DNA of 55,467 nucleotides from an uncultured Neglectibacter sp. GTDB taxonomy: Bacteria > Bacillota > Clostridia > Oscillospirales > Acutalibacteraceae. The stretch is from the NCBI GenBank assembly GCA_904419785.1, contig CAJFSY010000012.1, positions 1 through 55,467 on the forward strand, written 5' to 3'. This document shows, piece by piece, positions 14,345-38,063 of the stretch. Made by a program: the position numbers and the translations under genes. Below the pieces are notes generated by a model that was not told the origin of the DNA, did no database searches, and saw only the letters and a list, made by a program, of their open reading frames with translations. Position 1 is the first letter of the stretch, and each line of letters begins with the position of its first letter.

Positions 14345-15421
14345 TCAGCCTTTCTCGCCAGTGAGAGGGAAGTGACAGGCTACATAGTGGTTGTTGCCCA
14401 TGTCGCGCCACTCGGGAGCCTCCTGCCGGCATTTTTCCTGGCAATGGCGGCACCGGGTGTGGAATTTGCATCCCTTTGGCGGATTCACCGGGCTGGGGAT
14501 ATCGCCTTCCAGCAAAATCCGTTCCCGGCCACCGTTATTCTCTTCGGTGGTGGGGATAGCGGAAAGCAGAGCCTGTGTATAAGGATGGAGGGTGCGGGTG
14601 AAAAGTTCCTCAGAATCAGCCAGTTCCACCATGTTGCCCAGATACATTACACAAATACGGTCGCTGATATATTTGACCACGCTTAAGTCATGGGTAATGA
14701 ACAAATACGTCAGGCCAGCTTTTTCACGAAGCTCTGAAAGCAGGTTCAAAATCTGTGACTGAATAGAAACGTCCAGAGCAGAAACTGCTTCGTCACATAC
14801 CACGAATTTGGGCCGCAGTGCCAGGCTCCGGGCAATACCGATACGCTGGCGCTGGCCGCCGGAGAACTGGTGGGGATAACGGTTAAACATATAACTGGAA
14901 AGGCCACATTCTTCCATGATCTGGAAGATATAGTCCTTCATGGCAGGGTCGCCCCGCTTGAAAATACCGTGGGAAGTAAGGCCTTCCCCAATGATCTGGC
15001 CCACCGTCATACGAGGGTTCAGAGAAGAATAGGGGTCTTGGAAGATTAACTGCAGATCTTTGCGCAGCACCCGCATTTCATCATAAGAAAGCTTTTTCAA
15101 GTCGATGGGAGCGCCGTCTTTGTAATAGATGATATCGCCCTCTGTTTGAGGATAGAGCTGCAAAATGGTACGCCCCAGGGTGGACTTGCCACAGCCGGAT
15201 TCGCCCACCAGGCCCAGTGTTTCCCCTTCGTAAATATCCAGGGTAATGCCGTCGTTTGCGCGGACATAGCGCTGCTTTTCCCGCAGTTTTGTCTTTTTGA
15301 CCGGAAAGTATTGCTTGACATCCTGCAAGTGCAAAAGCACTTTACGGCCGTTCTCTTCAGGCTGAGAAGAGGTGGCTTTCTGCTTTTCAATGGCCTCTTG
15401 GCCCATTTTTTCATTTTGCAT
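14345..15421 (-). CDS. oppF: Oligopeptide ABC transporter ATP-binding protein (OppF-like)
   Basis: A 358 aa ATPase subunit energising peptide import. Walker A is GLVGESGCGKST, the signature is FSGGQRQR, and the Walker B region is FVVCDEAVSALD. The C-terminal oligopeptide-transporter extension has the Cys-rich GCKFHTRCRHCQEKC motif, which in OppD/DppD-type subunits can bind an iron-sulfur cluster. A charged 30-residue N-terminal stretch (QKATSSQPEENG) precedes the ABC domain. It overlaps the oppD stop by 11 nt, indicating coupled translation. Confidence 0.93.
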   Translation of the reverse strand: MQNEKMGQEAIEKQKATSSQPEENGRKVLLHLQDVKQYFPVKKTKLREKQRYVRANDGITLDIYEGETLGLVGESGCGKSTLGRTILQLYPQTEGDIIYYKDGAPIDLKKLSYDEMRVLRKDLQLIFQDPYSSLNPRMTVGQIIGEGLTSHGIFKRGDPAMKDYIFQIMEECGLSSYMFNRYPHQFSGGQRQRIGIARSLALRPKFVVCDEAVSALDVSIQSQILNLLSELREKAGLTYLFITHDLSVVKYISDRICVMYLGNMVELADSEELFTRTLHPYTQALLSAIPTTEENNGGRERILLEGDIPSPVNPPKGCKFHTRCRHCQEKCRQEAPEWRDMGNNHYVACHFPLTGEKG

Positions 15422-16406
15422 TTTCTTTTCTCACCGCCTTTTCCGCATAAAAACAACGTACCAGATGGCCGGGTTCCACTTCGCTGAGAGGAGGTTCTGC
15501 CTCCATGCACTTCTTAGTGCAGTATTTGCACCGGGGGCCAAACTTACAACCCTCAGGCAAATAAAGCGGGTTGGGCACCGAACCGGGAATGGCTTCCAGC
15601 TTTTCTCCCTTGGGAGTGTTGAGCTGGGGGATAGAGGTCATCAGCCCTTCGGTATAGGGATGGGAAAATACCGAGTCATGGAAAATTTCCGCTGCGGAAG
15701 CTTTTTCCACGATCTGTCCGCAGTACATTACCGCTACTTCGTCGGCCATTTCGTGAATGACGCCCAAATCGTGGGTGATGAACAAGATAGAAGTACCGGT
15801 CTGCTGCTTCAATTCGTTCATCAGCTTCAAAATCTGAGCCTGAATGGTCACGTCCAAAGCGGTGGTGGGTTCGTCCGCAATCAGCAGCTTGGGCTTGCAG
15901 GCCAGGGCCATGGCGATCATGACACGCTGGCGCATACCGCCGGACAGCTGGAAAGGATACTGCTTCGCCACCCGCTCGGGGTTGGGGATTTTCACGTCAG
16001 AGAGCAGTTCCACAGCTTTCTGGCGGGCTTGCTGCTTGTTCATATTCTGATGGATTCGCAGTACCTCGCCAATTTGCCGTTCTACTGTGAACACCGGGTT
16101 CAAAGAGGTCATAGGCTCCTGGAAAATCACCGAAATCTCATTGCCGCGGATGTGATACATTTCTTTGTCGGTGCAGTTCAAAATGTCCTGGCCGTCAAAG
16201 GTGATGGTGCCGCTCTCAATATAGCCGTTGCCGTCCAGCAGTTTGATGATGCTCATGGCTGAAACACTTTTTCCCGAACCAGATTCACCCACGATGCCCA
16301 GGGTTTTTCCCGCTTCCAGAGAATAGGTCACGTCGTTAACGGCTTTTACGATGCCTTTCTTGGTTTTAAAATACGTGTGAAGGTTCTTAACTTCCAGCAA
16401 ACTCAC
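15411..16406 (-). CDS. oppD: Oligopeptide ABC transporter ATP-binding protein (OppD-like)
   Basis: A 331 aa partner ATPase. Walker A GESGSGKS is at residues 40-47, with signature LSGGMRQR, Walker B LLIADEPT and an H-loop in ILFITHDLG. The C-terminal Cys cluster [15 protein letters not shown] is as in other peptide transporters. It starts 6 bp after the OppC-like gene's stop and overlaps the next gene. OppD and OppF form the heterodimeric motor. Confidence 0.94.
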
Positions 16407-16412
16407 AGGTGC

Positions 16413-18227
16413 TCACCTCTCTTTCGATTTGGGGTCAATGGCGTCACGCAGGCCGTCGCCCACACAGTTGATGCTGATAGTGCAAATGCCCAGGGCTGCC
16501 GAGGGGAATACCCACCGCCACCAGTAATTTTCGATTACCTGGCCGTTCTGTGCGCCGGTAAGCATGTTGCCCCATGTTGCGTTGGGCTCGTTGACGCCGA
16601 ACCCGATAAAGGACAGGGAAGATTCTGTCAACATACAAGTGGCGAAATCCAAAGTGGCGTTGACGATAATTACGGTGATGATATTGGGCAGGATATGGCG
16701 GAAGATGATGCCGAATTCCTTAACGCCCAATGCTTTGGCAGCCGTAACGAATTCCTGTTCACGCTCAGCCAGTACGCTGCCGCGCACCAGACGGGCGATG
16801 CCGGGCCAGGAGAGCAGGCCCAGAATAAACATGATCAAAATAATTCGCTGTGTCTCTGAGATACTGTTGCCCAGGATACTTGATAGGATGATACAGAATG
16901 GCAGGAAGGGGATGGAAGAGACGATCTCTGTCAAACGCATGAGCAGGTTGTCGATCTTTCCTCCCTTATAGCCGGAAATACCACCCACAATAATACCGAT
17001 AAGGGTAGAAATGATAACAGCGATAGCGCCAACGGTCATGGTCATACGGCCGCCAACCAGCAGCCGGCGGAACACGTCGCGGCCGAAAGCGTCGGTGCCC
17101 ATCAGGTAACCATCAAGGCCCCAGCCCTTTACTTCGCCGTTTTCCAAAACAGCGTAGCTGCTGTAGTAACCGGAAACCACGGAAACAACCTTGCTGTTGA
17201 AGCTGGGAACGTTAGTCTGTCCGAAATTGTTATCGCCCCAGGAAGCTACGGTGCCGTCATCCAGCAGAGCGGTATAGTGATAACGTCCTGCGGACAAAGC
17301 GGTTACCCGGCCCTGAATCTCTTCAGGCACATCCATGGAATGGTTCACGTTGTTGCCCCAGGTATGCACCTTGCCGTCTTTGGTCAAAGCGGCGGCGCTC
17401 TCGTCTGTAAGGGCAATATCGATCACGTTTCCTTGGATGTCTTCGGGCACCGTAGTGAAAGCAGATGCTTTGGAAGACAGGGGAACCACTTCGCCGTCGT
17501 TTGTCAAGGCTATGACAATATTGGTATTGTCATCAAACTTCTGAATGTTGCCCTGAACACCCTCGGGGAAGGTGATATTCAGCAGATACGTGCTGCCCCA
17601 GTTGTAAAGATGGCCGCCTTCTGTAAGGGCCAGAGAGATCTGGTAACCAGCTGAAATCTGTTTGATCGGATCGGTAGACAAACGCATTTCCACCGGGAGA
17701 GAGGCAAGGCCCATACGGTCATTACCCCAGGTAAAAATTTCCCCGTTTTCATTGACAGCTACGATGTGATCCAAACCGGCAGAGATCTGGGTGAGTTTAC
17801 CCATTTCCGAAGAGGAAGGGATCTTTTTCAGTTTGTCGGTGGGGAAAGTGCCCCATTCATACACCTTGCCGTCCTTGTCGATACCAACCGAGAAGGTGCT
17901 GCCGGAAGAGACCATCTGGGCATTCCCCTGCAGCTGGGAAGGAACGTTCAACATACCGAAGCCGGGGGCCACGTTAGACTGGGTTACATCCTGATAATGC
18001 AGATCGATGGGCAGAAAGAAGGGGAGCACGATGCAGCACAGGAAAATTATCAGGAACAGGCACAGGCCTGTCATGGCAATTTTATCGTGCAGAAAGCTCT
18101 TAACCACCATACGGGCAGGGCTTTGCATCAATTCTTCTTCTTCCTGAGGCAGTCCGCCAAACACCATACGTTGGGCGGCTGCTGCGGCGGTTGACTTCCG
18201 GCCGCCGAATAACTTTTTCTTAGCCAT
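16413..18227 (-). CDS. oppC: OppC-like permease carrying an inserted RCC1-type beta-propeller
   Basis: A 604 aa peptide-transporter permease, about twice the usual length of about 300. Residues 1-50 are cytoplasmic, with the first helix at about 52-72. Where a normal OppC continues with a short loop, residues about 103-372 instead contain seven consecutive repeats of about 40 aa with the RCC1 pattern (SAGxxHxxAL, then DGxVxxWG), for example TQISAGLDHIVAVNENGE and RVTALSAGRYHYTALLDDG. The permease resumes at YLMGTDAFGRDVFRRLL (residues 374-390) and has five more helices, with the EAA loop AAKALGVKEFGIIFRHILPN at 496-515. Reading is continuous with no frameshift. By topology the propeller is extracytoplasmic, where it could contact the binding protein, peptides or the cell wall. 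Confidence 0.93.
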   Translation of the reverse strand: MAKKKLFGGRKSTAAAAAQRMVFGGLPQEEEELMQSPARMVVKSFLHDKIAMTGLCLFLIIFLCCIVLPFFLPIDLHYQDVTQSNVAPGFGMLNVPSQLQGNAQMVSSGSTFSVGIDKDGKVYEWGTFPTDKLKKIPSSSEMGKLTQISAGLDHIVAVNENGEIFTWGNDRMGLASLPVEMRLSTDPIKQISAGYQISLALTEGGHLYNWGSTYLLNITFPEGVQGNIQKFDDNTNIVIALTNDGEVVPLSSKASAFTTVPEDIQGNVIDIALTDESAAALTKDGKVHTWGNNVNHSMDVPEEIQGRVTALSAGRYHYTALLDDGTVASWGDNNFGQTNVPSFNSKVVSVVSGYYSSYAVLENGEVKGWGLDGYLMGTDAFGRDVFRRLLVGGRMTMTVGAIAVIISTLIGIIVGGISGYKGGKIDNLLMRLTEIVSSIPFLPFCIILSSILGNSISETQRIILIMFILGLLSWPGIARLVRGSVLAEREQEFVTAAKALGVKEFGIIFRHILPNIITVIIVNATLDFATCMLTESSLSFIGFGVNEPNATWGNMLTGAQNGQVIENYWWRWVFPSAALGICTISINCVGDGLRDAIDPKSKER

Positions 18228-18238
18228 AGGGGGACCTC

Positions 18239-19231
18239 CTAGTTTTCAAGCCGGACCCGCGGGTCGACCAGGGTGTAGGCAATGTCCATGATGACGTTGC
18301 CGGCGAGAGACAGCACCACGTAAAACATCTGCATGGTGAGCACGATAGAGAAGTCCCGCTGCAAAAGGCCGTCGATCAGCATTTTGCCAAGGCCGGGCCA
18401 CAGGAATACGGACTCGATAACGATGGAGCCGCCGAACAGGGAAACTACCCAAGCGGTAGCAATGGTAACCACAGGAATCAAAGCATTGCGGAAAGCGTGG
18501 ACATAAATGACCACTTTTTCGCGCAAGCCTTTGGCACGAGCGGTTTTGATATAATCCATGCGCAGCACATCGATCATGGCGGCGCGCACATAACGGGTAA
18601 TACCGCCGATACCGGAAATAGACATTACGATGACCGGCAGCGCCATATGCCAAAGGGTATCTAAAGCCATTTGGAAAGCATTTCCTGAGAAGCCTGCCGA
18701 ACGCACGCCGCTGATTGGGAAGATAGGAATCTTTACGGCAAAAGCGAAAATGGCAAGCAAGGCAATGATAAAGCTGGGAAGGCTGTAGCCGATAATGGTG
18801 ACAACCTGAATCGTCTTGTCAAAAATACCGTTTTTCCGCACGGCAGTGACAATACCCAGCGGGATAGCTACGATAAACACCAGCAACATGGAAAGAAGGT
18901 TTAGCATAACGGTGTTCATCATGGGGGTGGCAATTACCTGAGCCACCTGCTGTTTATACTGAGTGGAATAGCCAAAATTACCGGTAAGCATGTTGCCGAT
19001 CCACCGGATATACTGTTCAGGCAGGGAACGGTTCAGACCCAGGCTTTCCGCGGTGCGGTCATAAAGAGCCTGATAAGCCTCGGGCTGCATGTTGTTTCGG
19101 GCGTCACCCAGCATCATGGTAACAGGATCACCGGGCATAAGCTTGTAAATAAAGAACATCAAAATGGATATGATGAAGAAAACAAAGATGATATAGATCA
19201 ATCTTTTAAGCAGATATCTGCCTTTTCCCAC
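18239..19231 (-). CDS. oppB: Oligopeptide ABC transporter permease (OppB-like)
   Basis: A 330 aa first permease of the peptide importer. The N-terminal helix (YIIFVFFIISILMFFIYKL) is followed by the hallmark LMPGDP at about residues 31-36, a large external loop, and five more helices. The EAA loop is KTARAKGLREKVVIYVHAFRN, and the protein ends in AYTLVDPRVRLEN, typical of OppB/DppB. Its stop is 11 bp from the OppC start. Unlike its partner it has no inserted domain. Confidence 0.94.
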   Translation of the reverse strand: MGKGRYLLKRLIYIIFVFFIISILMFFIYKLMPGDPVTMMLGDARNNMQPEAYQALYDRTAESLGLNRSLPEQYIRWIGNMLTGNFGYSTQYKQQVAQVIATPMMNTVMLNLLSMLLVFIVAIPLGIVTAVRKNGIFDKTIQVVTIIGYSLPSFIIALLAIFAFAVKIPIFPISGVRSAGFSGNAFQMALDTLWHMALPVIVMSISGIGGITRYVRAAMIDVLRMDYIKTARAKGLREKVVIYVHAFRNALIPVVTIATAWVVSLFGGSIVIESVFLWPGLGKMLIDGLLQRDFSIVLTMQMFYVVLSLAGNVIMDIAYTLVDPRVRLEN

Positions 19232-19326: not shown

Positions 19327-21258
19327 TTATTCCGTTACCCAAGCGTCCAGTACAGCAGAAGACCAATCCCAAATGGAAGAGGCATCCCAGCCTTGAAGCT
19401 TCAGGGAGAAGAAATCATAGTACTCGTCGGAATACAGGGGGATATCCGGCAGTTTGGTGTTCCAAACCTTGATATACTCACGCCAAGTCTCCAGCCACTT
19501 TTCGTTGTCTTCATAAGGAATGCTCTGGAGAGCGCCGGCAGCGTCGGCCAACTCCTGATCCAAAATCCAGTTGGAGTTGTAACCGGAGGTCATGAACCGC
19601 TCGTCTGTAGAATAGTTGTACCAAGGCGAGTTGGCTGTAGCAAAACCGGTAGCCAGATTGTACATGTTGTAGATCTTATCGCCGGAATGGTCAATGCAAG
19701 CGAACAGAGTAGAAACGTCCATGGTGGTGGGGCTCAGTTCCATACCAGCCTCAGCCATGGTCTCGGGCAGCATGGTGGCCAGCAGCTCGGAAACAGGGTT
19801 GCCTTCGGAGTTGGCCCACTCGATCACCAGGGGCTTCAGCTCGCCGTCAACATCCTTGTAACGGGTGCCAGTGCCGGAGTAGGGAGTGCCGTCTGCGTTC
19901 AAGGTCCAGCCGTCCTCTTCCAGCAGCTGCTTAGCGGTATCGATGTTCATTTCATAGGTGTTCAGGTTCTCGTTGATCCAATCGGTGGATTCCTGATACT
20001 CCCACTGGGCCAAGCCATATGCAGCGTGGACAACAGCGGCGTAACCACCGGAGTACTGACGGACAAACTCGTTGCGGTCCAGGCAGTAAGCGATAGCCTG
20101 ACGGACTTTCTCAGAGTCAGTGGGGAACTGGCTGCAGTCAAACTGGAGTTTGCCGTAGCCATTACGGAAATAGGTGTGATCCTGAACTTTGCCGGCTTCC
20201 ACCAGATCCAGGCCGGCATTGACAGTGTCAGCGCCGCTGGACTGGAACAACAGATCAACAGAACCGGACTCCAGCTCGTTCATCATGGTGTCGTTGGAAA
20301 CAGTCTTGATAACCAAGGTTTCGATAACGGGCTTTACGCCACGATAGTCGCCAGCGAACTTGGGGTTCACCTTCAAAGTGGCCTGGCGGCTGGCGGTGTC
20401 ATAGCTGTCCAGCAAATAAGGGCCGCAAACAACCTCGGGATGATACCGATAGCCGGTTTCGGGGTTATTGATGGTTTCGGTGAGCAGTTCGGTGGTGAAG
20501 TCGCCGGTGATCTTGGCGCCGTTCTCACTATCCTCTACATCGCAGCCGGGAGCCAGTACGGCCATGGGCCGGGGAGCAAGGCCAGCGTAAATGATATCGT
20601 AGTGGTTGGGCAGCTCCTCAGCGGCGATGGTGACGGAGTAGGTCATGTCATCCACCAGATGGACGCCGGCGAAGGTGTCGCTTTCACCGGAAACATACTC
20701 GTTATAGCCCTTTACAACAGACATGCCGTTGGCAGGATAGCCATCCACGCCGGTGATCTCGTTGCTGTTTTCCAGCAGAGCCTGGAACACATAATCCTTA
20801 GCGGTGATGGGAGTGTCGTCGCTCCACACCAAGCCATCTTTAATGGTAACAGTATAGGTCTTGCTGCCATCTTCGTTTTCGGTCTCTTCATGTTTTTCCA
20901 CTACAGTGGGATTGAACTCGAATTTACCCTCTTTGGTGTAGACTACAGTGCCGCCGCCGTGGATCAGGCTGTACATGCTGTAGTTGGTAGCGGCGTTGTT
21001 GAAAGAGGAATCGTAGAAATCGTTTTCAACAGGTGTGTTGGTGCCGATTATCAGCTGGCCGGAAGGCTCGGTGGGCCGTTCGCCGGTCTGGCCGGCTTCT
21101 GCGTCAGAGCTCGTAGTCTCCGAGCTGCTGCTTTCCACCGCAGAAGCGGTGGAAGAACTCTCCTGGTCGTTGGTGACAGGTTGCTGCTGTCCGCAGGCTG
21201 CCACCGAAAGAGCCAGGATCCCTGCCAACAACAGGGAGAGAATCTTTTTGGTTTTCAC
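19327..21258 (-). CDS. oppA: Oligopeptide-binding lipoprotein (OppA-like, family 5)
   Basis: A 643 aa extracellular peptide-binding protein of the SBP family 5 type. The lipoprotein signal ends in SVAAC (Cys22) and is followed by a long Ser/Glu/Thr-rich linker (about 23-65). The family-5 core includes DGLVWSDDTPITAKDYVFQA, the classic segment of OppA/DppA. It is the first gene of the minus-strand opp operon, behind a good promoter. Codon use is strongly biased, as in the binding protein at 11542, pointing to high expression. It delivers peptides to the OppB/OppC channel; ligand length preference is unknown. Confidence 0.94.
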   Translation of the reverse strand: MKTKKILSLLLAGILALSVAACGQQQPVTNDQESSSTASAVESSSSETTSSDAEAGQTGERPTEPSGQLIIGTNTPVENDFYDSSFNNAATNYSMYSLIHGGGTVVYTKEGKFEFNPTVVEKHEETENEDGSKTYTVTIKDGLVWSDDTPITAKDYVFQALLENSNEITGVDGYPANGMSVVKGYNEYVSGESDTFAGVHLVDDMTYSVTIAAEELPNHYDIIYAGLAPRPMAVLAPGCDVEDSENGAKITGDFTTELLTETINNPETGYRYHPEVVCGPYLLDSYDTASRQATLKVNPKFAGDYRGVKPVIETLVIKTVSNDTMMNELESGSVDLLFQSSGADTVNAGLDLVEAGKVQDHTYFRNGYGKLQFDCSQFPTDSEKVRQAIAYCLDRNEFVRQYSGGYAAVVHAAYGLAQWEYQESTDWINENLNTYEMNIDTAKQLLEEDGWTLNADGTPYSGTGTRYKDVDGELKPLVIEWANSEGNPVSELLATMLPETMAEAGMELSPTTMDVSTLFACIDHSGDKIYNMYNLATGFATANSPWYNYSTDERFMTSGYNSNWILDQELADAAGALQSIPYEDNEKWLETWREYIKVWNTKLPDIPLYSDEYYDFFSLKLQGWDASSIWDWSSAVLDAWVTE

Positions 21259-21463: not shown

Positions 21464-23266
21464 TTATTGGGTTGAAAGCTGTTCCATTTCTTTTACCAGT
21501 TCTTCAAAAAGCTTCAAAGCGTCGTCCACAGGAGCGGGGGCGCTCATGTCCACACCGGCGCCTTTCAGCAGTGACACAGGGTCGGTAGAGCAGCCGCCGC
21601 TGAGGAAGTGGAGGTAATCCTTCACAGCAGGGGCGCCTTCCCGCAGGATACGCTGGGAGAGGGCGATGGCGGCGGAGAAGCCAGTGGCGTATTGATAAAC
21701 GTAGAAATTCCGGTAGAAATGGGGGATCCTGGCCCATTCCAGGGCGATCTCCTGATCGGGCTCGATCTCCTCACCATAATATTCCCGGTTAAGCTCTCCA
21801 TATTTATCGCAGAGAGCTTCGGCAGTAAGGGGATGGCCTTTCCGGGTTTCCTCGCTGCACCAAAGCTCAAATTCAGCGAACATGGTCTGGCGGTAGAGGG
21901 TGGTGCGGAACTGCTCTAAGAAATGGTTGATCAGGTAAGCGCGCTGTTTGGGCTCCTGGGTCTTTCCAAGCAGATGCTGCATCAGCAAAGACTCGTTGCA
22001 GGTAGAGGCCACTTCCGCCACGAAGATTTTATAATTGGCATAGGTGACAGGCTGTTCCCTGTTGGAAAGGTACGAATGGAGCGCGTGGCCCATTTCATGG
22101 ACCAGCGTGAACAAGTCATCCAACGTGTCTGTGTAGTTCAACAGCACAAAAGGATGGTTGCCGAAAACGCCGGAGGAATAGGCGCCGGACCGTTTGCCCT
22201 GGTTCTCATACACGTCGATCCAGCGGTTGTCGAAACCTTCCCGCAGGATGCCCAGGTATTCTTCCCCTAAAGGCGCCAAAGCTTCCAAAGCGGTCTCTTT
22301 GGCCTGGTCGAAGGGGATGGTTTGTTCCTGGTCGGCGACCATAGAGGCGTAGATGTCGTAATAGTGGAGCTTGTCCACGCCTAAAAGTTTTTTCCGCAAG
22401 CGGATGTACCGGTGCATCGCCGGGAAATTCTTCCGCACGGCTGCGATCAGGTTGTGGTAAATCTCCACCGGAACTTCCGTGTTATCTAAAGCGGCGTGCA
22501 GGGCGGAAGGGTATTTCCGGGCGTTGGCGAAAAATTGAAGCTGTTTCATCTGGCCTTCCAACGAAGAGGCAAAGGTGTTCTGAAACTGCTTGTAAGCCCC
22601 ATACAAAGATTGGAATGCGGATTTCCGCAGTTCCCGGTCGGGAGCCTGCATCAAGGGGATGAACGTTCCGTGGGTGACCGGGTGGTTTTGGCCGCTTGCA
22701 TCCACCGCGTCGGGGAAGGTCAAGTCGGCGTCGTTCAAGAAATTGTAGGTGAGTCCCGGTGTCTGGCCCAGCTTGCCCGCGGCGGCCAGCAGCGCTTCTT
22801 CGCTTTGGGAAAGAGTGTGTTCCTTTTGGCGGCGCACCCGGTCCAGCACCAGTCGGTAATGCTCCAGCTCTGGAACAGCCTGATAAAAACCATTTAACGT
22901 CTCGTCGGGGATTTGCAGCACTTCGGGGGTAAAGAAAGCCAGGGCTTCCTGGGCCTCCAGCAAGAGGTTCTGCATTTGGCCGGCCATTTTTTGGTAAACG
23001 GGATTGCGGGTGTCCTCGTCTTTTTTGTACATGGCATAGCCCACGAAGGGATCGGCAATGCGGAGAAAATCATCCTCTAAACGGAGAAAGCCCAGCAGGT
23101 TCTGGCCGCTTTCCCCAAGCTTGCCTTCATATCCCTTGAATTTTTGCACCATGTCTTGGATTTTCGGGATTTCAGCTTCCCAAGCTTCATCGGTAGGGAA
23201 CAGGTCGGTAGTGGCCCAGGTGAATTTGGGGTCCACTTCGCCCCGGACGGGAATCTTGTGTTCCAT
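21464..23266 (-). CDS. pepF: Oligoendopeptidase F (M3B metallopeptidase)
   Basis: A 600 aa cytoplasmic zinc metallopeptidase that cleaves oligopeptides of about 7-17 residues. The zinc site HEMGH is at residues 390-394, and the third ligand Glu occurs about 25 residues later in FVAEVASTCNE. The length and domain order (N-terminal helical oligopeptidase F domain, then M3 catalytic domain) match the family. No signal peptide. It lies on the same strand as the opp operon but has its own promoter. Functionally it would degrade peptides brought in by Opp. Confidence 0.95.
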   Translation of the reverse strand: MEHKIPVRGEVDPKFTWATTDLFPTDEAWEAEIPKIQDMVQKFKGYEGKLGESGQNLLGFLRLEDDFLRIADPFVGYAMYKKDEDTRNPVYQKMAGQMQNLLLEAQEALAFFTPEVLQIPDETLNGFYQAVPELEHYRLVLDRVRRQKEHTLSQSEEALLAAAGKLGQTPGLTYNFLNDADLTFPDAVDASGQNHPVTHGTFIPLMQAPDRELRKSAFQSLYGAYKQFQNTFASSLEGQMKQLQFFANARKYPSALHAALDNTEVPVEIYHNLIAAVRKNFPAMHRYIRLRKKLLGVDKLHYYDIYASMVADQEQTIPFDQAKETALEALAPLGEEYLGILREGFDNRWIDVYENQGKRSGAYSSGVFGNHPFVLLNYTDTLDDLFTLVHEMGHALHSYLSNREQPVTYANYKIFVAEVASTCNESLLMQHLLGKTQEPKQRAYLINHFLEQFRTTLYRQTMFAEFELWCSEETRKGHPLTAEALCDKYGELNREYYGEEIEPDQEIALEWARIPHFYRNFYVYQYATGFSAAIALSQRILREGAPAVKDYLHFLSGGCSTDPVSLLKGAGVDMSAPAPVDDALKLFEELVKEMEQLSTQ

Positions 23267-36364: not shown

Positions 36365-37012
36365 ATGTATCCATTTTTTGCCATGCTTTCCCGAATGAAA
36401 TACATTAACCGCTGGGGACTGATGCACAACACCCGCAATGAGAATATTTGCGAGCACAGTCTGGAAGTGGCTTTGGTGGCCCACGCCCTGGCCACCATCG
36501 GCAACCGGAAGTTTGGAAAGAATTACGACCCCGAACGGGCCGCCATGCTGGCGGTGCTCCACGATGCCTCGGAGATCATCACAGGGGACATGCCCACGCC
36601 GGTGAAGTATCACTCTGAGGAGATACGGAAAGCCTATGCCGAGGTGGAGGATATGGCGGTGGAGCATCTTGTCTCCATGCTGCCGGAGGAGCTGCGGGAT
36701 GAATACCGGGGGATCATGACCATGAGCGGCGAGGCCGACGCGGAACTGAAACCGCTGGTCAAGGCAGCGGACCGCATCTCGGCGGTGATCAAGTGCATGG
36801 AAGAGCGGAAAAGCGGCAACCGGGATTTTTCCAAAGCCGAGCAGACGATTACCCAGGCGATTCACGACATGGGGCTTGTGGAAGCGGATTATTTTATGAA
36901 AGAATTCCTGCCGCCCTATGGGCTGACCATTGAGGAACAGGACTATACCCGGGAGGCTGGGTTAAAATTTTCGGAATCGTCACAAATGGTGTTTTCAAAA
37001 GTATTAAAATAG
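36365..37012 (+). CDS. HD-domain 5'-deoxynucleotidase (YfbR-like)
   Basis: A 215 aa metal-dependent phosphohydrolase that removes the 5'-phosphate of deoxynucleoside monophosphates. The HD-fold ligands appear as NICEHSLEVALVAH (His31) and LHDASEIITGDMPTPVK (His66, Asp67, Asp75), the pattern of E. coli YfbR. An Asp in VKAADRISA is the fourth metal ligand. ATG 36365 is 7 nt after GGGGGA and gives the normal MYPFFAMLSRM start; an upstream in-frame codon lies inside the promoter region. It begins a run of plus-strand housekeeping genes. Confidence 0.9.
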   Translation: MYPFFAMLSRMKYINRWGLMHNTRNENICEHSLEVALVAHALATIGNRKFGKNYDPERAAMLAVLHDASEIITGDMPTPVKYHSEEIRKAYAEVEDMAVEHLVSMLPEELRDEYRGIMTMSGEADAELKPLVKAADRISAVIKCMEERKSGNRDFSKAEQTITQAIHDMGLVEADYFMKEFLPPYGLTIEEQDYTREAGLKFSESSQMVFSKVLK

Positions 37013-37085
37013 ATGAGCGTCCCAAGACGGCGTACCGCGAAAGCCGTTTTGCGGGCTCCAACGAATCTTTGTAAAGGACGAGCAT

Positions 37086-38063
37086 ATGAATATCGGCAAT
37101 CTTGAAATCAATGGCCGGGCTGTTTTGGCTCCCATGGCTGGGGTTACCGACGCCGCTTACCGACGCTTGTGCGCGGATTTCGGCGCGGCCTATACCGTCA
37201 CCGAGATGGTCAGCGCCCGGGCTATCCAGTATAACTATCAAAAAACCGCCCAGCTGGCGGATACTTCCAAGGATCAGCATCCGGTGTTCCTCCAGCTGTT
37301 TGGCAGCGATCCCTTTGATTTTGGCCTGGCCGCCAAAAAAGCGGAAGCCTTTCATCCGGACGGCATCGACATCAATATGGGATGCCCTGTCCCCAAAGTG
37401 GCAGGCAACGGCGCGGGCAGCGCTTTGATGAAGGACCCAAGCCGTTGCGGCGCTATTGTGGCCGCGGTGAAACGGAACACGGACCTGCCTGTCACCGTGA
37501 AGATTCGGGCGGGCTGGGATGAGGAACACATCAACGCCGTAGAGGTAGCCAAAGCCTGCGAGCAGGCCGGAGCTGCAGCTGTTTGCGTCCACGGGCGCAC
37601 CCGCAGCCAAATGTATATGGGCCACGCCGATTGGGATGTGATCGGGGCGGTGAAACAGGCGGTGAGCGTTCCCGTCATCGGCAACGGTGATGTGGCGGAT
37701 GCCCAATCTGCCTGCAAACTGCTGGACCACACCGGCTGCGATATGGTCATGGTGGGCCGGGGGGCTTTGGGGAATCCCTGGATCTTTCGGCAGATCAACG
37801 CCTATTTGACAGATTCCTGCACTATCCTGCCGGGGCCGGGCATCGCTGAGCGGATCTTGGTCATCAAGCGCCATATGGGCGCTTTGTGCCAGCTGAAAGG
37901 CGAGGGCCGGGCCATGCGGGAAGCCCGGAAGCACGTGGGATGGTATCTCCATGGAATACGGGGGGCGGCGGAATTCCGACGCCGGGCCGGGGAACTTTCT
38001 ACATTGGAAGATTTAGACCGGCTTCTGCGGGATGTGTATGCCGCGGCCCAGGAGGAAGAATAA
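37086..38063 (+). CDS. dusB: tRNA-dihydrouridine synthase (DusB-like)
   Basis: A 325 aa FMN enzyme that reduces specific uridines in the tRNA D-loop with NADPH. It has the LAPMAGVTDAAYRRL start, the catalytic cysteine Cys100 in NMGCPVPKV, KIRAGWD, the VHGRTRSQMY segment and GNGDV with VMVGRGALGNPW for FMN phosphate binding. All are standard for DusB. Ribosome site AAAGGACGAG before ATG 37086. It lies 37 bp upstream of polA. Confidence 0.94.
   Translation: MNIGNLEINGRAVLAPMAGVTDAAYRRLCADFGAAYTVTEMVSARAIQYNYQKTAQLADTSKDQHPVFLQLFGSDPFDFGLAAKKAEAFHPDGIDINMGCPVPKVAGNGAGSALMKDPSRCGAIVAAVKRNTDLPVTVKIRAGWDEEHINAVEVAKACEQAGAAAVCVHGRTRSQMYMGHADWDVIGAVKQAVSVPVIGNGDVADAQSACKLLDHTGCDMVMVGRGALGNPWIFRQINAYLTDSCTILPGPGIAERILVIKRHMGALCQLKGEGRAMREARKHVGWYLHGIRGAAEFRRRAGELSTLEDLDRLLRDVYAAAQEEE

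Follow-up and report, generated by a model that had tools for sequence, protein, structure and literature searches.

The customary picture of a type I importer is a minimal pore working with a soluble or lipid-anchored binding protein, and it is, to our knowledge, unusual for the permease itself to contain a large folded domain. Both OppC permeases and BLIP-II-like propellers are familiar in their own right. For the E. coli importer DppABCDF, PMC12136057 describes DppA as capping both permeases, and the TM1-TM2 region of DppB as a "scoop" motif that enters the DppA cleft.

The window considered here, the whole stretch of 55,467 nucleotides analyzed from an uncultured Neglectibacter sp., carries on its minus strand the genes for OppA, OppB, OppC, OppD and OppF, in that order, with a gene for an M3 (PepF-like) oligopeptidase (21464..23266, minus strand, by family match) upstream of OppA. 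Family matches identify OppB (18239..19231), a permease of ordinary length; the ATPases OppD (15411..16406) and OppF (14345..15421, 358 aa); and OppA (19327..21258), a solute-binding protein of 643 aa with a lipobox-like start, all on the minus strand. The OppA model has the fold of a peptide-binding solute-binding protein, with B. subtilis AppA and lactococcal OppA as its best structural matches. The companions by which an OppC/DppC permease operon is recognized, namely a solute-binding protein, OppB and two ATPases, are all present among the window genes. The gene families and the predicted OppA fold agree on peptide import, suggesting an importer of the OppABCDF type.

The propeller within OppC

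The gene for the OppC-type permease is one open reading frame (16413..18227, minus strand) of 604 aa, as the first-pass annotation had it, and was assigned with Pfam, NCBIfam and phmmer. Pfam places OppC_N (residues 36-88, 5e-11), RCC1_2 and BPD_transp_1 (residues 411-601, 1e-33) along the protein in that order, all above cut-off; the profile search proposed earlier thus recovered both the RCC1 and the permease models, and the propeller does lie, as had been claimed, between TM1 and the point at which the permease resumes with MGTDAFGRDVF. RCC1_2 gives six passing stretches (1.5e-42, 142.8 bits against a cut-off of 22), WD40_RLD, the RCC1-like domain model, remains under its own cut-off (134.2 against 150), and the score for the NCBIfam equivalog Opp4C is 320.5 bits against a cut-off of 350. 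Within its genome, RCC1_2 matches at E <= 0.01 are confined to OppC.

Residues 1-87 (17967..18227; Pfam and model) comprise the N-terminus, predicted from family topology to be cytosolic, together with TM1 (the OppC_N match) and the lead to the insert. The insert itself, residues 88-372 (17112..17966), is a seven-bladed RCC1/BLIP-II-like propeller according to Pfam, phmmer, AlphaFold, Foldseek and alignment. A six-residue linker (residues 371-376, 17100..17117) joins the last blade to the GTD motif, and residues 373-604 (16416..17111; Pfam and phmmer) are the permease core, MGTDAFGRDVF followed by BPD_transp_1, all four parts being read from the minus strand. The insert site is therefore the TM1-TM2 loop, between OppC_N and the MGTD...BPD_transp_1 part. 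The core matches E. coli OppC (8z21_B) with an E-value of 3e-53 in phmmer, and in a sequence search the insert matches BLIP-II (3qhy_B) with an E-value of 5e-32. By family topology the propeller would be located outside the cell, in line with the first-pass annotation, as the TM1-TM2 region of E. coli DppB and DppC is periplasmic (PMC12136057). OppB, which had been said to have no such insertion, can indeed be aligned across the TM1-TM2 region of E. coli DppB with only about six extra residues, and because it aligns through that region it probably keeps the usual scoop.

The repeats of the insert start at residues 103, 145, 188, 228, 268, 308 and 347. An AlphaFold model of OppC made with 25 aligned sequences has seven three-stranded blades, with ten-residue mean pLDDT values of 78-95 in the insert; from the same 25 sequences the permease part is modeled poorly, with ten-residue means of 26-60. 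BLIP-II chains account for all five of the best Foldseek matches of the insert, with alignments of 279-288 columns and target TM-scores of 0.84-0.87. Since there are seven modeled blades and whole BLIP-II chains are aligned, the ring is closed in the model; modeling OppC alone thus gave no refutation, and the earlier suggestion that seven repeats close a propeller holds for the predicted ring. From strand direction, we read the topology as bringing the insert's two ends to one and the same face of blade 7.

We aligned 85 distinct sequences of this kind, with identical ones removed and a few cut at contig ends. Seven blades are present in 84 of them, the other (L094) being cut. The first-pass annotation had described seven repeats of about 40 aa with the pattern SAGxxHxxAL / DGxVxxWG; the seven repeats stand, but the full signature does not occur in every one. 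Blade 4 (residues 228-251, 17475..17546, minus strand) is without both the WG and the first-loop glycine signature in the window, and across the alignment its WG end occurs in no sequence and its first-loop glycine in one; blade 5 has the first-loop glycine in none, and the remaining blades mostly retain glycine and WG. The ring therefore has a constant odd side. In 85 of 85 sequences six residues separate the last WG position from GTD, and the N-side stretch is 22-24 residues long in 84, the exception being L094, which is cut by its contig end.

An assembly artefact or gene-fusion error is ruled out by the 85 distinct sequences having the same frame and linker length. A genus mate is 86% identical to the window OppC over its full length. 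Recent foreign insertion is ruled out as well: GC content is 0.520 in the insert and 0.517 and 0.536 in the two flanks, and the permease tree described below needs one change for its 78 propeller rows.

Distribution and descent of the insert

The survey of OppC homologues called for in the first-pass annotation found the same insertion in many of them, in a subfamily spread through the Bacillota and not as a one-off. Scanning genome contigs with the insert as query gave 58 loci, of which 32 encode insert and permease in a single frame, one (L028) is truncated at a contig end, and the other 25 showed different RCC1-like frames or nothing. With E-value cut-offs of 1e-15 and 1e-20, propeller-bearing OppC was found in 30 of 394 genomes of the order sample, 17 of 391 of the class sample and 14 of 398 of the phylum sample, the three samples overlapping. 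Carriers include Oscillospiraceae, Lachnospiraceae, Acutalibacteraceae, an Acetivibrio MAG, Clostridium sp. Cult1 and an Erysipelotrichaceae MAG. An alignment of 62 sequences including the window left out L085, L086, L053 and L028 as copies or cut.

Among 29 genomes of the window's genus, the full gene is present in two, split over two contigs in one, and represented by the permease end only in one. The locus L027, from a MAG named as Lachnospiraceae, is identical to the window at 95% in the permease core, 74% in the insert and 69% in OppA. Because only four of the 29 genus genomes show the gene or a part of it, and yet so similar a core is found in L027, the operon itself may have been able to move between lineages of gut Clostridia. 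There is also a stand-alone open frame of 525 aa with 12 RCC1_2 repeats (L057:3019-4593), 35% identical to the insert, which is a possible relative of the insert's source.

A tree built from the permease only has 139 rows, 78 with the propeller, 10 with another insert of more than 100 aa and 51 with neither; duplicates, rows scoring below 120 bits and truncated permease domains were left out, and the midpoint root serves for drawing only. All 78 propeller rows form one clade (100/100 support, 100% of 200 bootstrap trees), and no row lacking an insert falls inside it. The pattern in the sampled tree is that of a propeller that arose once and was then kept, as far as the permease sequences indicate, and losses are perhaps under-sampled because the propeller itself served in part to collect the rows.

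In the neighboring clades (L173-L177, L179 and L204-L207), OppC has inserts of 147-378 aa in the same TM1-TM2 loop, and the propeller model does not match them. Pfam applied to two OppCs with another insert (L273 and L275) finds OppC_N and BPD_transp_1 only, leaving the insert unmatched, and the other-insert OppCs inspected have a near-canonical PSxxHxLGTD end. Given the propeller clade and the neighboring clades with unmatched inserts, the loop thus took large domains at least twice, and from these sequences it looks like an insertion hotspot.

The linked OppA and possible roles of the propeller

Among the 72 propeller loci with flanking sequence, OppA, B, D and F were all identified in 69, and in every one of these the genes run colinearly as A-B-C-D-F on one strand. 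In L235, L237 and L252 some of the genes are missing from the available DNA. The OppA gene itself is found in 70 of the 72, L235 and L252 being short of DNA on the OppA side. An M3 peptidase gene adjoins 18 related operons, 17 times on the strand of the operon; it is absent from 15 others with at least 2 kb of upstream sequence, and the upstream stretch is too short in 38. The OppF open frame is at least 450 aa long in 38 of the 69 complete propeller operons, and the window OppF is without the extra segment. In the four cases inspected (L254:7120-8694, L058:8555-10120, L062:8530-10089 and L243:7157-8776), this segment separates Walker A from the Q-loop and looks helical or coiled-coil-like by eye.

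A search of 245 class-sample genomes for the OppA lineage (E <= 1e-60, with at most five candidates scored per genome) gave matches in 10, nine of them propeller genomes. The remaining eight propeller genomes of the class sample were searched and seven match, including G750 by a gene cut at the contig start, so that the lineage is present in 16 of the 17; in the last, G700, the contig stops shortly after OppB (L252). In G526, a genome 78% complete, the OppA lineage is present at a contig end, and a search of this incomplete genome found neither a propeller OppC nor a near permease. G763 has an additional OppA of the propeller-linked lineage, located outside the operon on a different contig. 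With 16 of 17 genomes matching and this additional copy off the operon, an exclusive pairing of propeller and OppA is not upheld. When compared with sister operons, OppB, the permease, OppD and OppF show 33-57% identity, and in the 8 of 13 cases with an identified sister-operon OppA, the window OppA reaches at most 99 bits against it. On the basis of this linkage and comparison, a distinct binding-protein lineage accompanies the propeller, and the link may reflect only the inheritance of the operon as one unit.

Two genomes have more than one OppA. In G450, two adjacent genes of the same lineage precede the propeller OppC (G450:C1:1156924-1158918 and 1159460-1161415), and G763 has three OppA genes (G763:C4:32276-34432 and 36662-37846, and G763:C7:203784-205805 on the other contig). 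Several binding proteins may feed one importer in these organisms.

For the analysis of covariation, 69 loci supplied subunit sets, reduced to 65 by a length filter, with the window, and to 60 by a 97% filter. Branch lengths of propeller and OppA covary with a partial r of 0.50, a value that does not exceed a noise-matched simulated null (mean 0.43, with 94 of 500 runs as high). Of the known partners put to the same null, OppD-OppF passes (0 of 500), and OppA-OppB (65 of 500) and OppB-permease (67 of 500) fail, therefore the covariation test has little power. We discarded covariation as evidence for docking, the matched-noise null being nearly equal to the observed r. At exposed loop positions, conservation on the presumed membrane-side face of the propeller does not exceed that on the far side (p 0.57). 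Among the loop classes, conservation is lowest (0.21-0.38) in the far-side loops that precede strand A, but these are also variable in length, and we give the low values no weight. Neither the covariation nor the face-conservation results favor or rule out docking.

We tentatively propose, as a reading that falls somewhat short of an even chance, that the propeller is a rigid outer platform that docks or retains a dedicated lipoprotein OppA. The propeller would sit at the outer face of the importer, on the rim of the translocation path, in the loop equivalent to that of the scoop but in the other subunit, held by two short linkers of near-constant length that would both meet the membrane-nearest face of blade 7. 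Here it might keep loaded OppA near, or correctly oriented over, OppB and OppC, leaving OppB with an ordinary scoop that would open OppA; imported peptides could then be cut by the neighboring PepF-like peptidase. Of the three roles suggested in the first-pass annotation, OppA docking has circumstantial support from the linked OppA lineage and the constant linkers, and substrate capture and wall contact are without support.

RCC1-like propellers are generally protein-binding scaffolds, and BLIP-II, the closest relative with a solved structure, is itself a propeller that binds a protein, with a partner in the picomolar range. The propeller might accordingly be a receptor or anchor for some other envelope partner, such as a peptidoglycan enzyme, an extracellular protease, the S-layer or a wall polymer, siting the importer where peptides are released. 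The data point to no such partner, although the flanks were searched for Opp subunits and the M3 peptidase only, and we consider this explanation unlikely. The position of the propeller beside the pore entrance of an oligopeptide-type importer would also suit the capture of peptides or glycopeptides by the propeller itself, with transfer to OppA or straight to the pore, but the conserved loop residues single out no face of the ring and an OppA gene is present wherever the flanking DNA extends far enough to show it, making this quite improbable. About as improbable is a largely neutral insertion, tolerated because the two ends of a propeller are near each other and the loop is a permissive site: the same site does hold different inserts or none in other clades, but the propeller is kept in 78 of 78 rows of its clade, from genus to phylum samples, and its linker is of fixed length. 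Least probable of all is a fast-changing shield against phages, bacteriocins or host factors at the outer face of the importer, as the faster divergence of the insert than of the permease core in L027 and the presence of other inserts in the same loop of neighboring clades must be set against a similar pace in the L027 OppA, so that such a rate is nothing exceptional in a protein on the outside, and against a linker and a blade number that do not vary in complete sequences.

The OppA platform could be one instance of a broader arrangement, in which the TM1-TM2 loop of the C subunit is a modular extracellular slot, filled by the propeller in one clade with its own OppA lineage and by other domains in neighboring clades, and in which the domain in the slot sets which binding protein docks and how, making this a distinct importer subtype. 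We regard this generalization as rather unlikely, although less so than any of the alternatives to docking above. If true, it would be a slot-based rewiring of importers, of which we found no description.

The first-pass annotation knew of no characterized example of this design, and our searches of the literature, covering open-licence papers, likewise found no description of an RCC1-type propeller within OppC or an ABC permease, though absence there is no proof. We did not find the combination, its single origin, its spread or its link to one OppA lineage in print. A gut-bacterial importer with a fixed outside platform would offer a tractable case for studying the means by which Gram-positive cells hold binding proteins close to their pumps, and our results suggest that a distinct subfamily is being counted as plain OppC by the family models.

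Comparison with known systems

The window OppC shares with E. coli OppC and DppC (PDB 8z21_B and 8z1v_B) and with NCBIfam Opp4C the TM1 segment (OppC_N), the GTD..GRD motif, the BPD_transp_1 core and an operon with OppA, B, D and F. The E. coli chains are 300-302 aa long and without a propeller, whereas the window OppC has 604 aa and a propeller. The other-insert OppCs (L173-L177, L179 and L204-L207) use the same loop, but their inserts are unlike the propeller model and their OppA is distant where found. BLIP-II (beta-lactamase inhibitory protein II; 3qi0 and 1jtd) is likewise a seven-bladed RCC1-type propeller of the same size, 27-28% identical over the chain with target TM-scores of 0.84-0.87, but it is a free inhibitor protein, whereas the predicted ring in the window is part of a permease. 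The scoop of DppB/OppB is, like the propeller, an extracellular TM1-TM2 element of a permease beside the binding protein; it is a motif of about 30 residues in the B subunit that enters the DppA cleft (PMC12136057), whereas the propeller is a domain of about 285 residues in the C subunit.
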